From NCBI RefSeq assembly GCF_013697775.1, contig NZ_JACCWG010000109.1, positions 1-43,452 on the forward strand: DNA of 43,452 nucleotides, read 5' to 3'. How positions within the stretch are numbered: position 1 is the stretch's first letter; each line of letters begins with the position of its first letter. Position numbers and translations under genes: made by a program. Shown one piece after another: positions 4,375 to 24,016 of the stretch. This DNA is from Ramlibacter sp. (lineage in GTDB: Bacteria; Pseudomonadota; Gammaproteobacteria; Burkholderiales; Burkholderiaceae_C). Under the pieces are notes generated by a model that was not told the origin of the DNA, did not search any database, and saw nothing but the letters and a program-made list of their open reading frames with translations.

Positions 4375-4965
4375 TCAGCTACCAGACTTTTTGGCCTTGG
4401 TGGTCTTCTTGGTCGCAGGCTTGCGGCTGGAAACCGCGCTCTTGCCCTGCTGTCCGCGCGCGGCAGCCCGTGCCGCTCTCGCCTCGTTCGCCGCCTGCAC
4501 CGACTGCATCGGCAGCGAGATGGCCAAGTAGTCCTGCTCCAGGTAGTGCAGGGCGCGATGGCCGTGCGTGACCTTCACCTGGGCGTTCTCCTCTGCACCG
4601 CGCATGTCGTGCGAGGTGAAGTACACCGGCAAGGGCTTTTTCGCCGCAAGGTTCTTGGCGATCGCATCCACAATCGCCTCGTCGCCGTTCTTGCCCTTCA
4701 CGTTCGAGGGGTGCTTGGCCAGCGCGCCGAGCAGATTCAGCCAGCGGTTGCGGATCTCGTTGTTGCGCGCACCGATGTTTAGTGCGCTCACACTGGTACG
4801 GAACGTCCGGCCCGCCTTGAAAATCTTGAATTCCTTCTGGAGTTCGGCCATCTCCTCGACGCCGCCGTAATGGGCCTCGCTGCCCTGGGACGGCGCGAAC
4901 CGGAGGTTCAATTCCTCCAGCATGCTGCCGATGTAGATGTCGTGCTCCTGCATGAACCAGCCCAT
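4375..4965 (-). CDS. Unrecognised protein with a basic Lys/Ala-rich tail
   Basis: I do not recognise this 196-residue protein. The ATG at 4965 (MGWFMQEHDIYIG) has AAGGA about 8 bases upstream and is preferred over the track's start at 5037. Residues 1-150 are a compact, charged, globular-looking region without a signal peptide or membrane segment. The last 40 residues are rich in Lys, Arg, Ala and Ser (ending KPATKKTTKAKKSGS), a composition often seen in nucleic-acid-binding tails. It lies immediately upstream of the methyltransferase on the same strand, and the two frames abut, so they may be co-transcribed. No function is proposed. Confidence 0.7.
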   Translation of the reverse strand: MGWFMQEHDIYIGSMLEELNLRFAPSQGSEAHYGGVEEMAELQKEFKIFKAGRTFRTSVSALNIGARNNEIRNRWLNLLGALAKHPSNVKGKNGDEAIVDAIAKNLAAKKPLPVYFTSHDMRGAEENAQVKVTHGHRALHYLEQDYLAISLPMQSVQAANEARAARAAARGQQGKSAVSSRKPATKKTTKAKKSGS

Positions 4966-5306
4966 AGCGTTAATCCTTGTGGACAAAGTGTGGCGAAGTG
5001 TAAGCGCGCGCGCCGAAGGGCGCAATCGCCCACGCACCCGCCTCTGAACGCCCGAGATAGGCGTCTGTACGTCGCTCGCGGTGCTTGGAAGGCCTTCGCA
5101 CCCGATGCTCGCTCATGCAAACCTTTGAAGGACGCAAGTTGCTGATCGAGCGCATTGCCGTGATGGGGCTGATGCCGGCGGCCGAGGCCGCCGGCATCAG
5201 CTCGCGCGCCGCCCGCAAGTGGCGAGATCGCTTGGAGAACGAAGGTGTTGATGGACTGATGGACCGCAGCTCGCGCCCGGCCAAAACGCGCAGTTGCGTC
5301 GAGCCC

Positions 5307-18884: not shown

Positions 18885-18901
18885 TGCCAGCCCGCCTGGG
18901 T

Positions 18902-19399
18902 TCAATAGTCGACGTTGACGGTGACCGTCTTTGCGTAGCTGCCGGCGGGCAGCGCCTTGAAGTTCGCCGCGAGGATGCGGCCGTGCAGCGCCACGGTCTG
19001 CAGGCTGCCGTTCTGCGTGATGGACAGGGTGTCCGCGCTTAAAGCGGCACTTGCCAGGTCGTTGGAGCCGGTGCAGGCCGACAGGCACAGGTTGAATGCC
19101 AGGGTGTGGGTGGCGCCGTCGTCCATCTCGCGCGTCGTGGCCGAGTAGATGGTGGGGCTGAGGCCGGTGCTGCAGGCCACCTGGAAGCCGGAGCCGCTGT
19201 TGGCGGCCTTGTTGCCGCTGCTGGCCAGCGCCACCACGGAGCCGAAGTCGATCGCCGCACCGGATGCGGAGATCTCGCAAGCGGCCGTCAGGGTGGTCTG
19301 CACATCGACGGAGCCTCCCACGGTGGCGGCGTGCGAGCTGAATGCCATGGAGGCGAGGCCGGCTGCGGCCAGCGCGGAAATAAGAATGCGTTTCGACAT
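18902..19399 (-). CDS. Spore coat protein U (SCPU)-domain pilus subunit, first gene of the operon
   Basis: A 165-residue secreted subunit, probably the main pilin by position. The signal peptide is SKRILISALAAAGLASMAFSS with cleavage near SHAA. The mature part begins TVGGSVDVQTTLTAACEISA and carries the SCPU pattern AIDFGSVVALASSG, two pairs of Cys, and the C-terminal AGSYAKTVTVNVDY. The start at 19399 has GGAGG eight bases upstream, so the track's extra 11 residues are not needed. It heads the order subunit, chaperone, usher, subunit. Confidence 0.88.
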   Translation of the reverse strand: MSKRILISALAAAGLASMAFSSHAATVGGSVDVQTTLTAACEISASGAAIDFGSVVALASSGNKAANSGSGFQVACSTGLSPTIYSATTREMDDGATHTLAFNLCLSACTGSNDLASAALSADTLSITQNGSLQTVALHGRILAANFKALPAGSYAKTVTVNVDY

Positions 19400-19428
19400 G
19401 ATTTGGTTCCTCCAACGGTTTGAACAAC

Positions 19429-19483
19429 ACACCTGCGGGTCGCTGCCCTCGCCGTAACTCCTGCAGGTGTCCAGTCACTTTAG
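19429..19483 (-). promoter_or_regulatory. Leader of the pilus operon with an inverted repeat and a possible -10 box
   Basis: ACACCTGC (19429-19436) and GCAGGTGT (19463-19470) are a perfect 8-bp inverted repeat with a 26-bp spacer. On the minus strand TAAAGT (about 19483-19478) could be the -10 box, which would place the repeat in the early 5' UTR. It may form an RNA hairpin or be an operator. Confidence 0.35.
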
Positions 19484-20569: not shown

Positions 20570-22672
20570 ATGGCAGCGACAACCAAGAACCTGCTGGTCG
20601 AACTGTTCGTCGAGGAACTGCCGCCCAAGGCGCTCAAGAAGCTTGGCGAGGCGTTTGCGAACGAGATTTTCGGAACATTGCGCAAGCTCGACTATCTCGA
20701 CGCTGCATCTATTCAAACGGTTTATGCCTCCCCTCGCAGGCTTGGCGTCCACATCACAGCGGTTCGATCGGTTTGTCCCGATGTGCCCGTCCGAACACGG
20801 CTGCTGCCGGTTGGTGTTGCGTTCGGGCCGGCTGGCGAGCCGTCGGACTCCCTGCTGAAACGCCTCGACAAGGAGGGAGCATCTCTCGCTGAAACCAAGC
20901 GCGCCTTTGAAGGCGGAAAGGAGTTCGTGTTTCTTGAGAGATTGGCGGTGGGCCGGCCGCTTGTGGATGGATTGCAGGGCGCACTGCTGGTTGCCATCGA
21001 GAACCTGCCGATTCCCAAGGTCATGACCTACCAGCTAGCCGACGGGACGGACGTGAAATTCGTGCGGCCGGCGCATGCGCTGGTCGCGCTGCACGGCAAC
21101 GAGGTGGTGCCGGTGCAGGCGCTGGGCCTGCAGGCCGGACGCACCACGCGCGGCCACCGCTTCGAAGCCGCTGTCGAACGCATCGAGATCGCGGATGCCG
21201 ACAGCTATGCGCAAACGCTGGAGCGCGACGGCGCGGTCATCGCGAGCTTCCAGGCCCGCCGCGCCGAGATCGCGCGGCAGCTCGCCGACGCTGCGCAGAA
21301 GGTCGGCGGCGGCGTGCAGCCGATCGATGACGCCGCGCTGCTGGACGAAGTGACGGCGCTGGTCGAGCGGCCCAACGTTCTGGTCTGCGCGTTCGAGCGC
21401 GAGTTCCTCGACGTGCCGCAGGAATGCCTCATCCTCACGATGAAGGCCAACCAGAAATACTTTCCGCTGCTGGATGCCGGCGGCAAGCTCACCAACAAAT
21501 TCCTGGTGGTCAGCAACATCCGCCCGGCCGACGCCAGCGCCGTGGTCGGCGGCAACGAGCGCGTGGTGCGCCCGCGCCTGGCCGACGCCAAATTCTTCTT
21601 CGACCAGGACCGCAAGAAGCCGCTGGAGTCGCGCGTTGCCGGCCTGTCGAAGGTGGTCTACCACAACAAGCTGGGCACCCAGGGCGAGCGCATCGAGCGC
21701 GTGCGCGCCATTGCCAGGGTGATCGGCGCGCGGCTGGGCGACGACTTGCTCGCGCACAACGCCGACCGCGCGGCGCTGCTCGCCAAGGCCGACCTGCTGA
21801 CCGACATGGTGGGCGAATTCCCCGAGCTGCAGGGCATCATGGGCGGCTACTACGCGCGCCACGACGGCCTGGGCGAGGACATCGCCTTCGCCATCGAGGA
21901 CCACTACCGTCCGCGCTTCGCCGGCGACGCGCTGCCGCGCAACCGCGTCGGCCTGGTGGTCGCGCTGGCCGACAAGCTGGAAACGCTGGCCGGCCTGTTC
22001 GCCATCGGGCAATTGCCCACCGGCGACAAGGACCCGTTCGCGCTGCGCCGCCATGCGCTGGGCATCGTGCGCATGCTGATGGGGCAGGACCTGCCGCTGG
22101 CCGTCGGCGAGCTGGTCGCCCAGGCGCTGGCCCTGTTCCCGCAGGCCGAGGCCAAGACCGGCGCGCTGCTGGCCGACTTCATCTTCGAACGCCTGGCGGG
22201 CCTGCTGCGCGAGCAGGGCTACAGCACGCAGGAAGTCGACGCGGTGCTGGCGCTGCGCCCGCAGCGCCTGGGCGACGTCGCCAAGCGGCTCGCCGCGGTG
22301 CGGGCCTTCGCTGCGCTGCCGGAAGCGCCCGCGCTGGCGGCCGCCAACAAGCGCATCGGCAACATCCTGAAGAAGGCCGACGGCCGGGTCGATCCGCACG
22401 TGAGCGACGTGCTGCTGCAGGAGGACGCGGAAAAGGCGCTCCACGCCGCCATGGGCAGCATCGGGCCGCAGGCGCATGCGCAGTTCGAGGCGGGCGACTA
22501 CACCGCTTCGCTGCAGACCCTGGCCGCCCTGCGCGGCCCGGTGGATGCGTTCTTCGATGGCGTGATGGTCAACGCCGAGCAGCCGGACCTGCGCCTGAAC
22601 CGGCTCGGCCTGCTGTCGATGCTGCACCAGGCGATGAACCGCGTGGCGGACCTGTCGCGGTTGGCAAGCTGA
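20570..22672 (+). CDS. glyS: Glycine--tRNA ligase beta subunit
   Basis: The tRNA-binding beta subunit, 700 residues, full length. The N-terminus NLLVELFVEELPPKALKKLG, the tract LTMKANQKYFPLLDAGGKL, the HD-like region GIMGGYYARHDGLGEDIAFA and the C-terminal anticodon-binding (DALR-like) part ending MLHQAMNRVADLSRLAS are all typical. From about 20640 to 21060 the DNA uses many A- or T-ending codons (for example TCTATTCAAACGGTTTATGC), unlike glyQ and the rest of glyS, which end almost always in G or C. This suggests a recombined segment, although the protein stays normal. Confidence 0.96.
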   Translation: MAATTKNLLVELFVEELPPKALKKLGEAFANEIFGTLRKLDYLDAASIQTVYASPRRLGVHITAVRSVCPDVPVRTRLLPVGVAFGPAGEPSDSLLKRLDKEGASLAETKRAFEGGKEFVFLERLAVGRPLVDGLQGALLVAIENLPIPKVMTYQLADGTDVKFVRPAHALVALHGNEVVPVQALGLQAGRTTRGHRFEAAVERIEIADADSYAQTLERDGAVIASFQARRAEIARQLADAAQKVGGGVQPIDDAALLDEVTALVERPNVLVCAFEREFLDVPQECLILTMKANQKYFPLLDAGGKLTNKFLVVSNIRPADASAVVGGNERVVRPRLADAKFFFDQDRKKPLESRVAGLSKVVYHNKLGTQGERIERVRAIARVIGARLGDDLLAHNADRAALLAKADLLTDMVGEFPELQGIMGGYYARHDGLGEDIAFAIEDHYRPRFAGDALPRNRVGLVVALADKLETLAGLFAIGQLPTGDKDPFALRRHALGIVRMLMGQDLPLAVGELVAQALALFPQAEAKTGALLADFIFERLAGLLREQGYSTQEVDAVLALRPQRLGDVAKRLAAVRAFAALPEAPALAAANKRIGNILKKADGRVDPHVSDVLLQEDAEKALHAAMGSIGPQAHAQFEAGDYTASLQTLAALRGPVDAFFDGVMVNAEQPDLRLNRLGLLSMLHQAMNRVADLSRLAS

Positions 22673-22695
22673 AGCGTGGACCGGATAATCGACGC

Positions 22696-23019
22696 GTGAA
22701 CCGGCAGCAACAGATCGACGACTTCCTGCTGGAAATGCATCGGCTCGCAGTGGCGCGCCTTCGTGCGGAGCCTGCCCGGATCGCGGACGTTGCCGCCTTG
22801 CTGGCGCGCTGGCGCGCGCTGAACGGCGAAACCCGCTCGGACGCCTACCGTGATGAATGGAACCAACTGGTCGCACTCGGCGTCGAGGCGATTGAGCGTG
22901 AAGCATGCGCGCCCACCGAACACGCCGCCGCACTGCGCAACATCTCCCCACTGTCGGTGCTGGTGACCCAGCAAGAGCGCGGTGCGCTGCTGCGTGCCGC
23001 ACGGCGCGCTTCGCCATGA
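22696..23019 (+). CDS. Small unrecognised protein paired with a nucleotidyltransferase-like gene
   Basis: A 107-residue protein starting at a GTG (MNRQQQIDDFLLEMHRLAVA), rich in Arg, Ala and Leu and predicted helical, with no membrane segment. I do not recognise a named family. Its ATGA overlap with the next gene (stop 23017-23019, next start 23016) shows the two are a translationally coupled pair. Such small-protein-plus-nucleotidyltransferase pairs resemble AbiE/MNT-type toxin-antitoxin modules, but that is inference from arrangement only. The pair lies between glyS and gmhB, genes that I expect to be adjacent in related genomes. The reading frame is buried in a longer shadow ORF (21424-23019) on the ORF track. 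Confidence 0.6.
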   Translation: MNRQQQIDDFLLEMHRLAVARLRAEPARIADVAALLARWRALNGETRSDAYRDEWNQLVALGVEAIEREACAPTEHAAALRNISPLSVLVTQQERGALLRAARRASP

Positions 23020-23450
23020 AGCGGTCCGAAGTCGAGCACGTGCTGCGCGCGGCCGCGGCCATCACGCAGGAGCATTCCTTTGTGGTGGTGGGCAGCCAGG
23101 CGATTCTGCTGGCCTATCCGCACGCACCCGAAGAGTTGCTGGTGTCGCGTGAGCTCGATTTATATCCGGCGCTCAATCCCGGGAAGGCCGACCTGATCGA
23201 TGGCGCGATCGGTGCCATGTCGAGTTTCGACGAAACGTTCGGCTATCACGCCGATGGCGTCGGCCCCGAAACTGCCGTGATGTCGTCGGATTGGCAGAGT
23301 CGAATGCAGTTGTTTTATGTGGGCGGCCGTCGCATGCTCGATGCCGACGTCCTGCTGCAGCGCATCGGCCAGCTGGACATCGCTGCGCATCCTGTCGCCG
23401 CTATTTCCGAATGGGCGCGCCGCCGGTCCCTGGAGGCTCGATCCGCATGA
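23016..23450 (+). CDS. Nucleotidyltransferase-like protein (DUF6036-like), possibly shortened
   Basis: A 144-residue protein whose N-terminal half looks like a minimal nucleotidyltransferase: FVVVGSQAILLAYP gives the GS motif and VSRELDLYPAL the acidic motif, followed by LIDGAIGAMSSFDETFGYHA. Related proteins, as I know them, continue with a helical segment (HDLxxxKLxAxRxKD) before an end like LLQRIGQLDIAAHPVAAISE. Here the acidic-end segment follows almost at once after MQLFYVGGRRMLDAD, so an in-frame internal loss is suspected. It starts at 23016 overlapping the upstream small gene, and its own stop overlaps the gmhB start (ATGA). Function is unproven; a toxin role is only a guess. Confidence 0.6.
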   Translation: MKRSEVEHVLRAAAAITQEHSFVVVGSQAILLAYPHAPEELLVSRELDLYPALNPGKADLIDGAIGAMSSFDETFGYHADGVGPETAVMSSDWQSRMQLFYVGGRRMLDADVLLQRIGQLDIAAHPVAAISEWARRRSLEARSA

Positions 23451-24016
23451 AACTCGCCATCCTCGACCGCGACGGCACCATCAACGCCGACAGCGACGAG
23501 TTCATCAAGTCGCCCGACGAATGGCAGCCGCTGCCCGGGGCGCTGGAGGCGATCGCGCGGCTGAACCATGCGGGCTGGCACGTGGTGGTGGCGTCCAACC
23601 AGTCGGGCCTGGGCCGCGGCCTGTTCGACGTGGCGACGCTCAACGCCGTGCACGCCAAGATGCACAAGGCGCTGGCGGCCGTCGGCGGGCGCATCGACGC
23701 CGTGTTCTATTGCCCGCACAGCCCGGACGAGGGCTGCCGCTGCCGCAAGCCGCTGCCGGGGCTGTTCGAGCAGATCGGCGAGCGCCTGGGCGTCGACCTG
23801 AAGCAGGTGCCGGTGGTCGGCGACACGGTGCGCGACCTGCAGGCAGGCGTGGCGGTCGGCTGCGCGCCGCACCTGGTGCTCACCGGCAAGGCCGCCGCGC
23901 TGCGCGGCCAGCCGCTGCCGGCGGAGTTTCCCGCCGGCACGCAGGTGCACGAGGACCTCTGCGCGTTCGCCGACTGGCTGGTCAAGCGCGTCCCGCCGCC
24001 CGCCAAGCCGGCCTGA
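23447..24016 (+). CDS. gmhB: D-glycero-beta-D-manno-heptose 1,7-bisphosphate 7-phosphatase
   Basis: HAD-superfamily phosphatase in ADP-heptose synthesis for the LPS inner core. The start MKLAILDRDGTINADSDEFI carries the catalytic pair Asp7 and Asp9. Substrate and zinc motifs are visible as VASNQSGLGRGLF and CPHSPDEGCRCRKP, and the late acidic motif as VVGDTVRDLQAGVAVG. Length (189) is normal. GGAGG lies about ten bases before the ATG, so it can be translated independently despite overlapping the upstream gene by four bases. The track buries it inside a longer frame starting at 23291. Confidence 0.95.
   Translation: MKLAILDRDGTINADSDEFIKSPDEWQPLPGALEAIARLNHAGWHVVVASNQSGLGRGLFDVATLNAVHAKMHKALAAVGGRIDAVFYCPHSPDEGCRCRKPLPGLFEQIGERLGVDLKQVPVVGDTVRDLQAGVAVGCAPHLVLTGKAAALRGQPLPAEFPAGTQVHEDLCAFADWLVKRVPPPAKPA

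Follow-up and report, generated by a model that had tools for sequence, protein, structure and literature searches.

A candidate toxin-antitoxin cassette of a small helical protein and a DUF6036-family nucleotidyltransferase between glyS and gmhB in Burkholderiales

What are two small genes doing inside a household run, between glyS and gmhB, and how did they come to be there? Both lie in the window analysed here, a stretch of 43,452 nucleotides from Ramlibacter sp. A first-pass annotation had described them as a toxin-antitoxin (TA)-like cassette of an unrecognised small protein and a minimal nucleotidyltransferase (NTase)-like protein. The two open reading frames, their coordinates and their ATGA couplings (partner/NTase at 23016-23019, NTase/gmhB at 23447-23450) were correct, and homologues match over the full length. 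The features of the locus are as follows.

20570..22672, + strand: glyS, upstream flank; its final codons overlap the -35-like hexamer
22661..22689, + strand: sigma-70-like promoter, TTGGCA-17-GATAAT, 10/12 matches, 6 nt 5' of the partner start codon
22696..23019, + strand: partner gene (ORF1), GTG start, 107 aa, antitoxin-like, all-helical
23016..23450, + strand: DUF6036-family NTase gene (ORF2), 144 aa, internally deleted; assigned by 12.4 bits to DUF6036 and by alignments
between 23324 and 23325, + strand: deletion scar in the NTase gene, 96 nt lost in frame
23447..24016, + strand: gmhB, downstream flank; ATGA overlap with the NTase gene

A locus of the same genus (L030/L069), likewise flanked by glyS and gmhB, has the gene order and overlaps of the window; its partner is 66% identical to the window partner and its NTase is intact. 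A search of the window genome found no second copy of the cassette.

The pair is an insert rather than a fixed part of this run. A close form was present in 3 of 59 genomes/species of the genus (G000, G165, G189), always in the order glyS-partner-NTase-gmhB, and in a family sample the pair occupied the junction in 8 of 151 genomes. In the cassette-less loci that were measured, glyS and gmhB were adjacent, separated by 6-94 bp. These empty sites bear out the earlier view that a household run is interrupted, and they rule out a household role common to all relatives.

A scan of GTDB species genomes identified 31 Burkholderiales loci in Ramlibacter, Variovorax, Polaromonas, Rhizobacter, Rhodoferax, Brachymonas and unclassified members, which together with the window and the locus L003 make up 33 genomes. 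Each cassette at the site had the partner immediately 5' of the NTase; in L093 the end of the contig truncates the partner at its 5' side. In all 31 loci glyS was upstream, except in L093, where the contig ends, and gmhB directly followed the NTase, except in L091. In the latter (Polaromonas, 4537-5283), an FkbM-type methyltransferase gene separates the NTase from gmhB, so the junction can accept more cargo. Partner proteins also adjoin DUF6036 NTases in Verrucomicrobiota, Chloroflexota, Desulfuromonadales and others. The genes thus form a linked module, as the first-pass annotation had supposed.

The NTases of the glyS-gmhB site formed one clade (support 100/100), whereas presence and absence mapped on the glyS tree required at least 16 changes. 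Together these observations suggest one entry at the junction, followed by repeated loss and/or transfer. Transfer can be followed closely in two Variovorax genomes, V. ginsengisoli (L077) and Variovorax sp. J22P271 (L094). Their DNA is 94-100% identical through glyS and 91-98% from gmhB on, but only 51-74% in the cassette; identity drops at the glyS stop codon and returns just before the gmhB start codon. At the protein level, identity was 99% for GlyS and 98% for GmhB, but 66% for the NTase and 42% for the partner. The sharp breaks at either end indicate, on comparison of the two sequences, that the cassette was exchanged as a whole. The loci L084 and L100 show the same pattern of near-identical flanks and differing cassettes, and the two cases rule out purely vertical inheritance. 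NTase and partner distances were correlated even with the effect of glyS and gmhB removed (partial r 0.71, Mantel p 0.0005, 29 loci), as would be expected for cognate pairs that move together.

The window glyS itself looks mosaic. Residues about 35-140 of its product (20675-20990) are only about 40% identical to GlyS of the same genus, whereas the rest is mostly 72-94% identical and the relatives are 78-86% identical among themselves over residues ~35-140; recombination at the glyS locus is possibly the source. Further upstream, an ORF at 18900-19432 on the - strand (MSKRILISALAAAGLASMAFSSHAATVGG...) resembles, as judged by sequence, an ordinary secreted spore-coat-U/Csu-type pilin; it has a chaperone-like neighbour and adjoins glyQ.

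The partner had been called unrecognised. This holds for family libraries, since no match was found in Pfam, NCBIfam, PADLOC or PHROG; it does not hold in general, because relatives exist. Isolated weak Pfam matches of partner proteins (BTAD, Death domain and others) were rejected. An AF2 model of the partner was compact and helical (pLDDT 94.4), and no significant sequence or fold relative was detected in the PDB. In other places within this bacterial family, genes ahead of DUF6036 NTases encode XRE helix-turn-helix (HTH) proteins of ~230 aa (HTH_31, HTH_3). The window partner aligned to residues 111-210 of these proteins (hhalign probability 99.0, E 5.5e-18), and by this profile alignment it represents their C-terminal domain, with the HTH missing. 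HTH domains on partner-type proteins occurred only in relatives at other places. In other phyla the partner domain stands alone, after a different HTH (L107) or after a cysteine-bearing N-terminus (L110). Residues W55, R81, P85 and R95 were invariant in the partner alignment.

The second gene is NTase-like, as had been proposed. DUF6036 (PF19502) is listed by Pfam as a nucleotidyltransferase of unknown function, and 35 of 35 aligned intact relatives matched it (E <= 0.1). Because of its deletion, the window NTase scored 12.4 bits, below the curated cut-off of 23.6 bits; the intact NTase of the same genus (L069) reached 42.2 bits. The gene is not minimal by nature: intact NTases at the site have 173-180 aa, and the window copy is short through a 32-residue internal loss. 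In 35 NTase homologues from several phyla, S27-Q28, E46/D48, D114, K119, A122, R124 and K126-D127 were invariant and G26 nearly so (in Rhizobacter L088, Asp replaces the motif I glycine), in the order of motifs I-IV of AbiEii, in which mutations remove toxicity (PMC3985639). The intact NTase was modelled with a pLDDT of 96.7; comparison with the PDB gave no significant sequence or fold relative, the fold search returning MenT4 and TglT as weak matches (TM 0.39-0.42). None of the papers searched mentions DUF6036, in line with the earlier suggestion of an undescribed module. In a Rhizobiales ORF (L109, 4001-4582), the first ~122 NTase residues are followed without a break by a partner-like C-terminus (WERLL...RLRHSMPFAGVL), possibly a deletion fusion of the two families.

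Which known system does the pair resemble? Among the closest is AbiE (AbiEi/COG5340 and AbiEii/DUF1814), a type IV TA system of abortive infection that excludes phages and whose bacteriostatic toxin is neutralised without contact. Likenesses are the order of a regulator/antitoxin gene followed by an NTase, the four NTase motifs hG[GS], DxD-like, K/R and +D in the same order, and, in HTH-bearing DUF6036 relatives, inverted repeats at the promoter. In AbiEi, the C-terminal domain suffices for neutralisation (PMC3985639), and by this likeness the partner is a candidate antitoxin. However, the NTase here belongs to DUF6036 and has about 175 aa, and none of the 35 NTases matched DUF1814/AbiEii in Pfam, NCBIfam or PADLOC. 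The libraries used showed no relation of the partner to COG5340; AbiE antitoxins combine a DNA-binding and a C-terminal neutralising domain, whereas the window partner has only a domain of the C-terminal type. The HEPN-MNT systems (HepT/MntA) likewise couple a small helical protein to a small NTase. However, the partner shows neither a HEPN match nor the Rx4-6H motif, and its relatives carry HTH domains fused to it; no HEPN Pfam match was found among 34 partners. By these family assignments the pair is outside AbiE, lacking DUF1814 and a COG5340 partner, and outside HEPN-MNT, and PADLOC gave no match for the pair.

Two further systems are similar in part. MenAT of Mycobacterium tuberculosis has an NTase toxin, and its antitoxins are diverse, MenA1 (7.4 kDa) being without HTH domains (PMC11375011). 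The NTase weakly resembles MenT4 and TglT in structure, but there was no significant sequence or fold match and the antitoxin families differ. The type II system Xress-MNTss of Streptococcus suis joins an XRE-type antitoxin and a nucleotidyltransferase in one operon (PMC8406773), the same make-up as in HTH-bearing DUF6036 relatives. It differs in that MNTss is, by description, kanamycin-NTase-like and in that the window pair is without HTH.

The pair shows what is general to TA systems, a conserved two-gene operon with a patchy, mobile distribution. Plasmid carriage was seen in 56 records, and no relative turned up among phage records or viral contigs. On an Acidiphilium multivorum plasmid (L144, 4001-8528), a DUF6036 NTase gene lies ~4 kb or less from genes for an AbiEii/AbiGii-family protein, a restriction endonuclease and a HipA-family toxin. 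The architecture, the motifs, the mobility, plasmid carriage and this one neighbourhood lend indirect support to a TA-like and possibly anti-phage module. The TA-like reading had been proposed earlier and is strengthened by the partner, a counterpart of the C-terminal domain found in HTH regulators of autoregulated-looking DUF6036 pairs on chromosomes and plasmids.

The cassette had been thought to use the glyS transcript. Reliance on that transcript alone finds no support, given the sigma-70-like site directly before the partner, the sole promoter-like site within 22400-23800 (shuffled sequences, 0.0 +/- 0.1). With the -10 hexamer so close to the GTG, transcription would be expected to start at or near this codon, and the mRNA is predicted to be leaderless. 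An ATAAT 5-8 nt 5' of the partner start was present in 24 of 32 cassettes, compared with 0 of 53 empty junctions, and none of the window's 546 ATGs had one upstream. The -35 element, which overlaps the terminal glyS codons, is weaker in many Variovorax. In HTH-bearing relatives the promoter is also just 5' of the start codon, with inverted repeats on both sides (in L032 a perfect repeat of 11 bp). Promoter and leaderless start are predicted from sequence conservation; read-through from glyS may add to expression but is not needed, given the promoter-like site.

Alignment showed that the window NTase has lost residues 104-135 of its intact relative, i.e., 32 residues or 96 nt, in frame. In the intact model, residues 105-109 form a strand and residues 112-122 a helix, both of which fall in the gap together with most of a further helix (125-136). 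With it go six invariant residues, D114, K119, A122, R124, K126 and D127, so that the window copy no longer has the complete set. The missing residues appear to be counterparts of AbiEii toxicity motifs III-IV, and AbiEii is no longer toxic when K and R of motif III or D of motif IV are mutated (PMC3985639). The loss of these residues suggests that the window NTase is probably inactive.

Broken NTases were found at the site in three further genomes. The gene is frameshifted in Polaromonas P2-4 (L095, complete genome) and in the draft G017 (L003), where the partner is shortened too, and in the isolate V. paradoxus MEDvA23 (L100) most of the C-terminal half was lost in frame. Since the window genome is a draft, its deletion may reflect an assembly error; the comparable in-frame loss in the isolate and the frameshifts in the complete genome and in G017 argue against this. 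Among these four loci only L003 has a damaged partner. That the toxin gene breaks more often than the antitoxin gene is suggestive only, resting on 3-4 cases and not significant. The remaining part of the window NTase did not evolve faster than its intact sister (Tajima counts 7 vs 13 and 8 vs 7), which points to a recent loss or to continued selection on the remnant; saturation of synonymous sites left dN/dS with little information.

Taken as a whole, the data are probably best explained by a DUF6036 NTase/antitoxin-like two-gene module that would act in the manner of AbiE or MenAT. By placing a nucleotide on a cellular target, the NTase would halt growth unless neutralised by the small helical partner. 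In the site version, a partner without DNA-binding domain and its NTase would be driven by their own short promoter, leaderless and right behind glyS. The module would have entered the glyS-gmhB junction once in Burkholderiales, would spread, be swapped and be lost by homologous recombination via the flanking household genes, and may now be decaying in several lineages, the window NTase without its motif III/IV segment being most likely catalytically dead and the partner left intact. Against this reading count the lack of a significant PDB fold match for either protein, the distinctness of DUF6036 from DUF1814 in sequence, the absence of PADLOC, phage and viral-contig matches, the non-significant excess of NTase lesions and the unaccelerated remnant of the window NTase. 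A more far-reaching version of this reading, which we offer tentatively, is that the pair could represent an undescribed class of NTase TA or phage-defence systems: a regulator-less antitoxin and a DUF6036 toxin at one fixed junction behind an essential gene, where diverged cognate versions would be exchanged between strains as the household flanks recombine and the last glyS codons would supply the -35 element.

The NTase might instead serve an accessory function in regulation or metabolism, e.g., modify tRNA, protein or small molecules, with the helical protein as its dedicated subunit; the pair would then be gained and lost for niche reasons. An HTH-less pair within a household operon, a constitutive-looking promoter and invariant residues kept in intact copies would fit such a role, which we nevertheless consider unlikely because the patchiness at one site, the allelic swaps, the HTH-fused, inverted-repeat-regulated relatives and the plasmid carriage with a defence/TA neighbourhood resemble TA and defence genes. 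Reversed roles are very improbable. HEPN toxins are small helical proteins and the NTase MntA modifies HepT (PMC7641770), so the partner could by analogy be the toxin and the NTase a modifying antitoxin. However, the HTH fused to the partner in relatives is normally borne by antitoxins, the invariant partner residues include no conserved Rx4-6H, and the partner stayed intact in three of the four cases in which the NTase broke.

A working, remodelled NTase in the window, shortened yet still able to fold and to act or bind the partner, is also improbable. In its favour, the loss keeps the reading frame and the ATGA overlap, and the remainder evolves no faster than the intact sister; yet one core strand and nearly two helices are gone from a fold that was modelled with confidence, together with all six C-terminal invariant residues, and the same half was lost independently in L100 and, by frameshift, in L003.

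With the TA-like reading, DUF6036, an NTase family of unknown function, gains a constant partner, a candidate role and natural loss-of-function alleles, and the partner domain emerges as one that recurs with different N-terminal parts. The glyS-gmhB junction exists in cassette-plus, cassette-minus and swapped versions in related culturable Comamonadaceae, e.g., Variovorax, and therefore toxicity, cognate specificity and a role in phage defence are directly testable.
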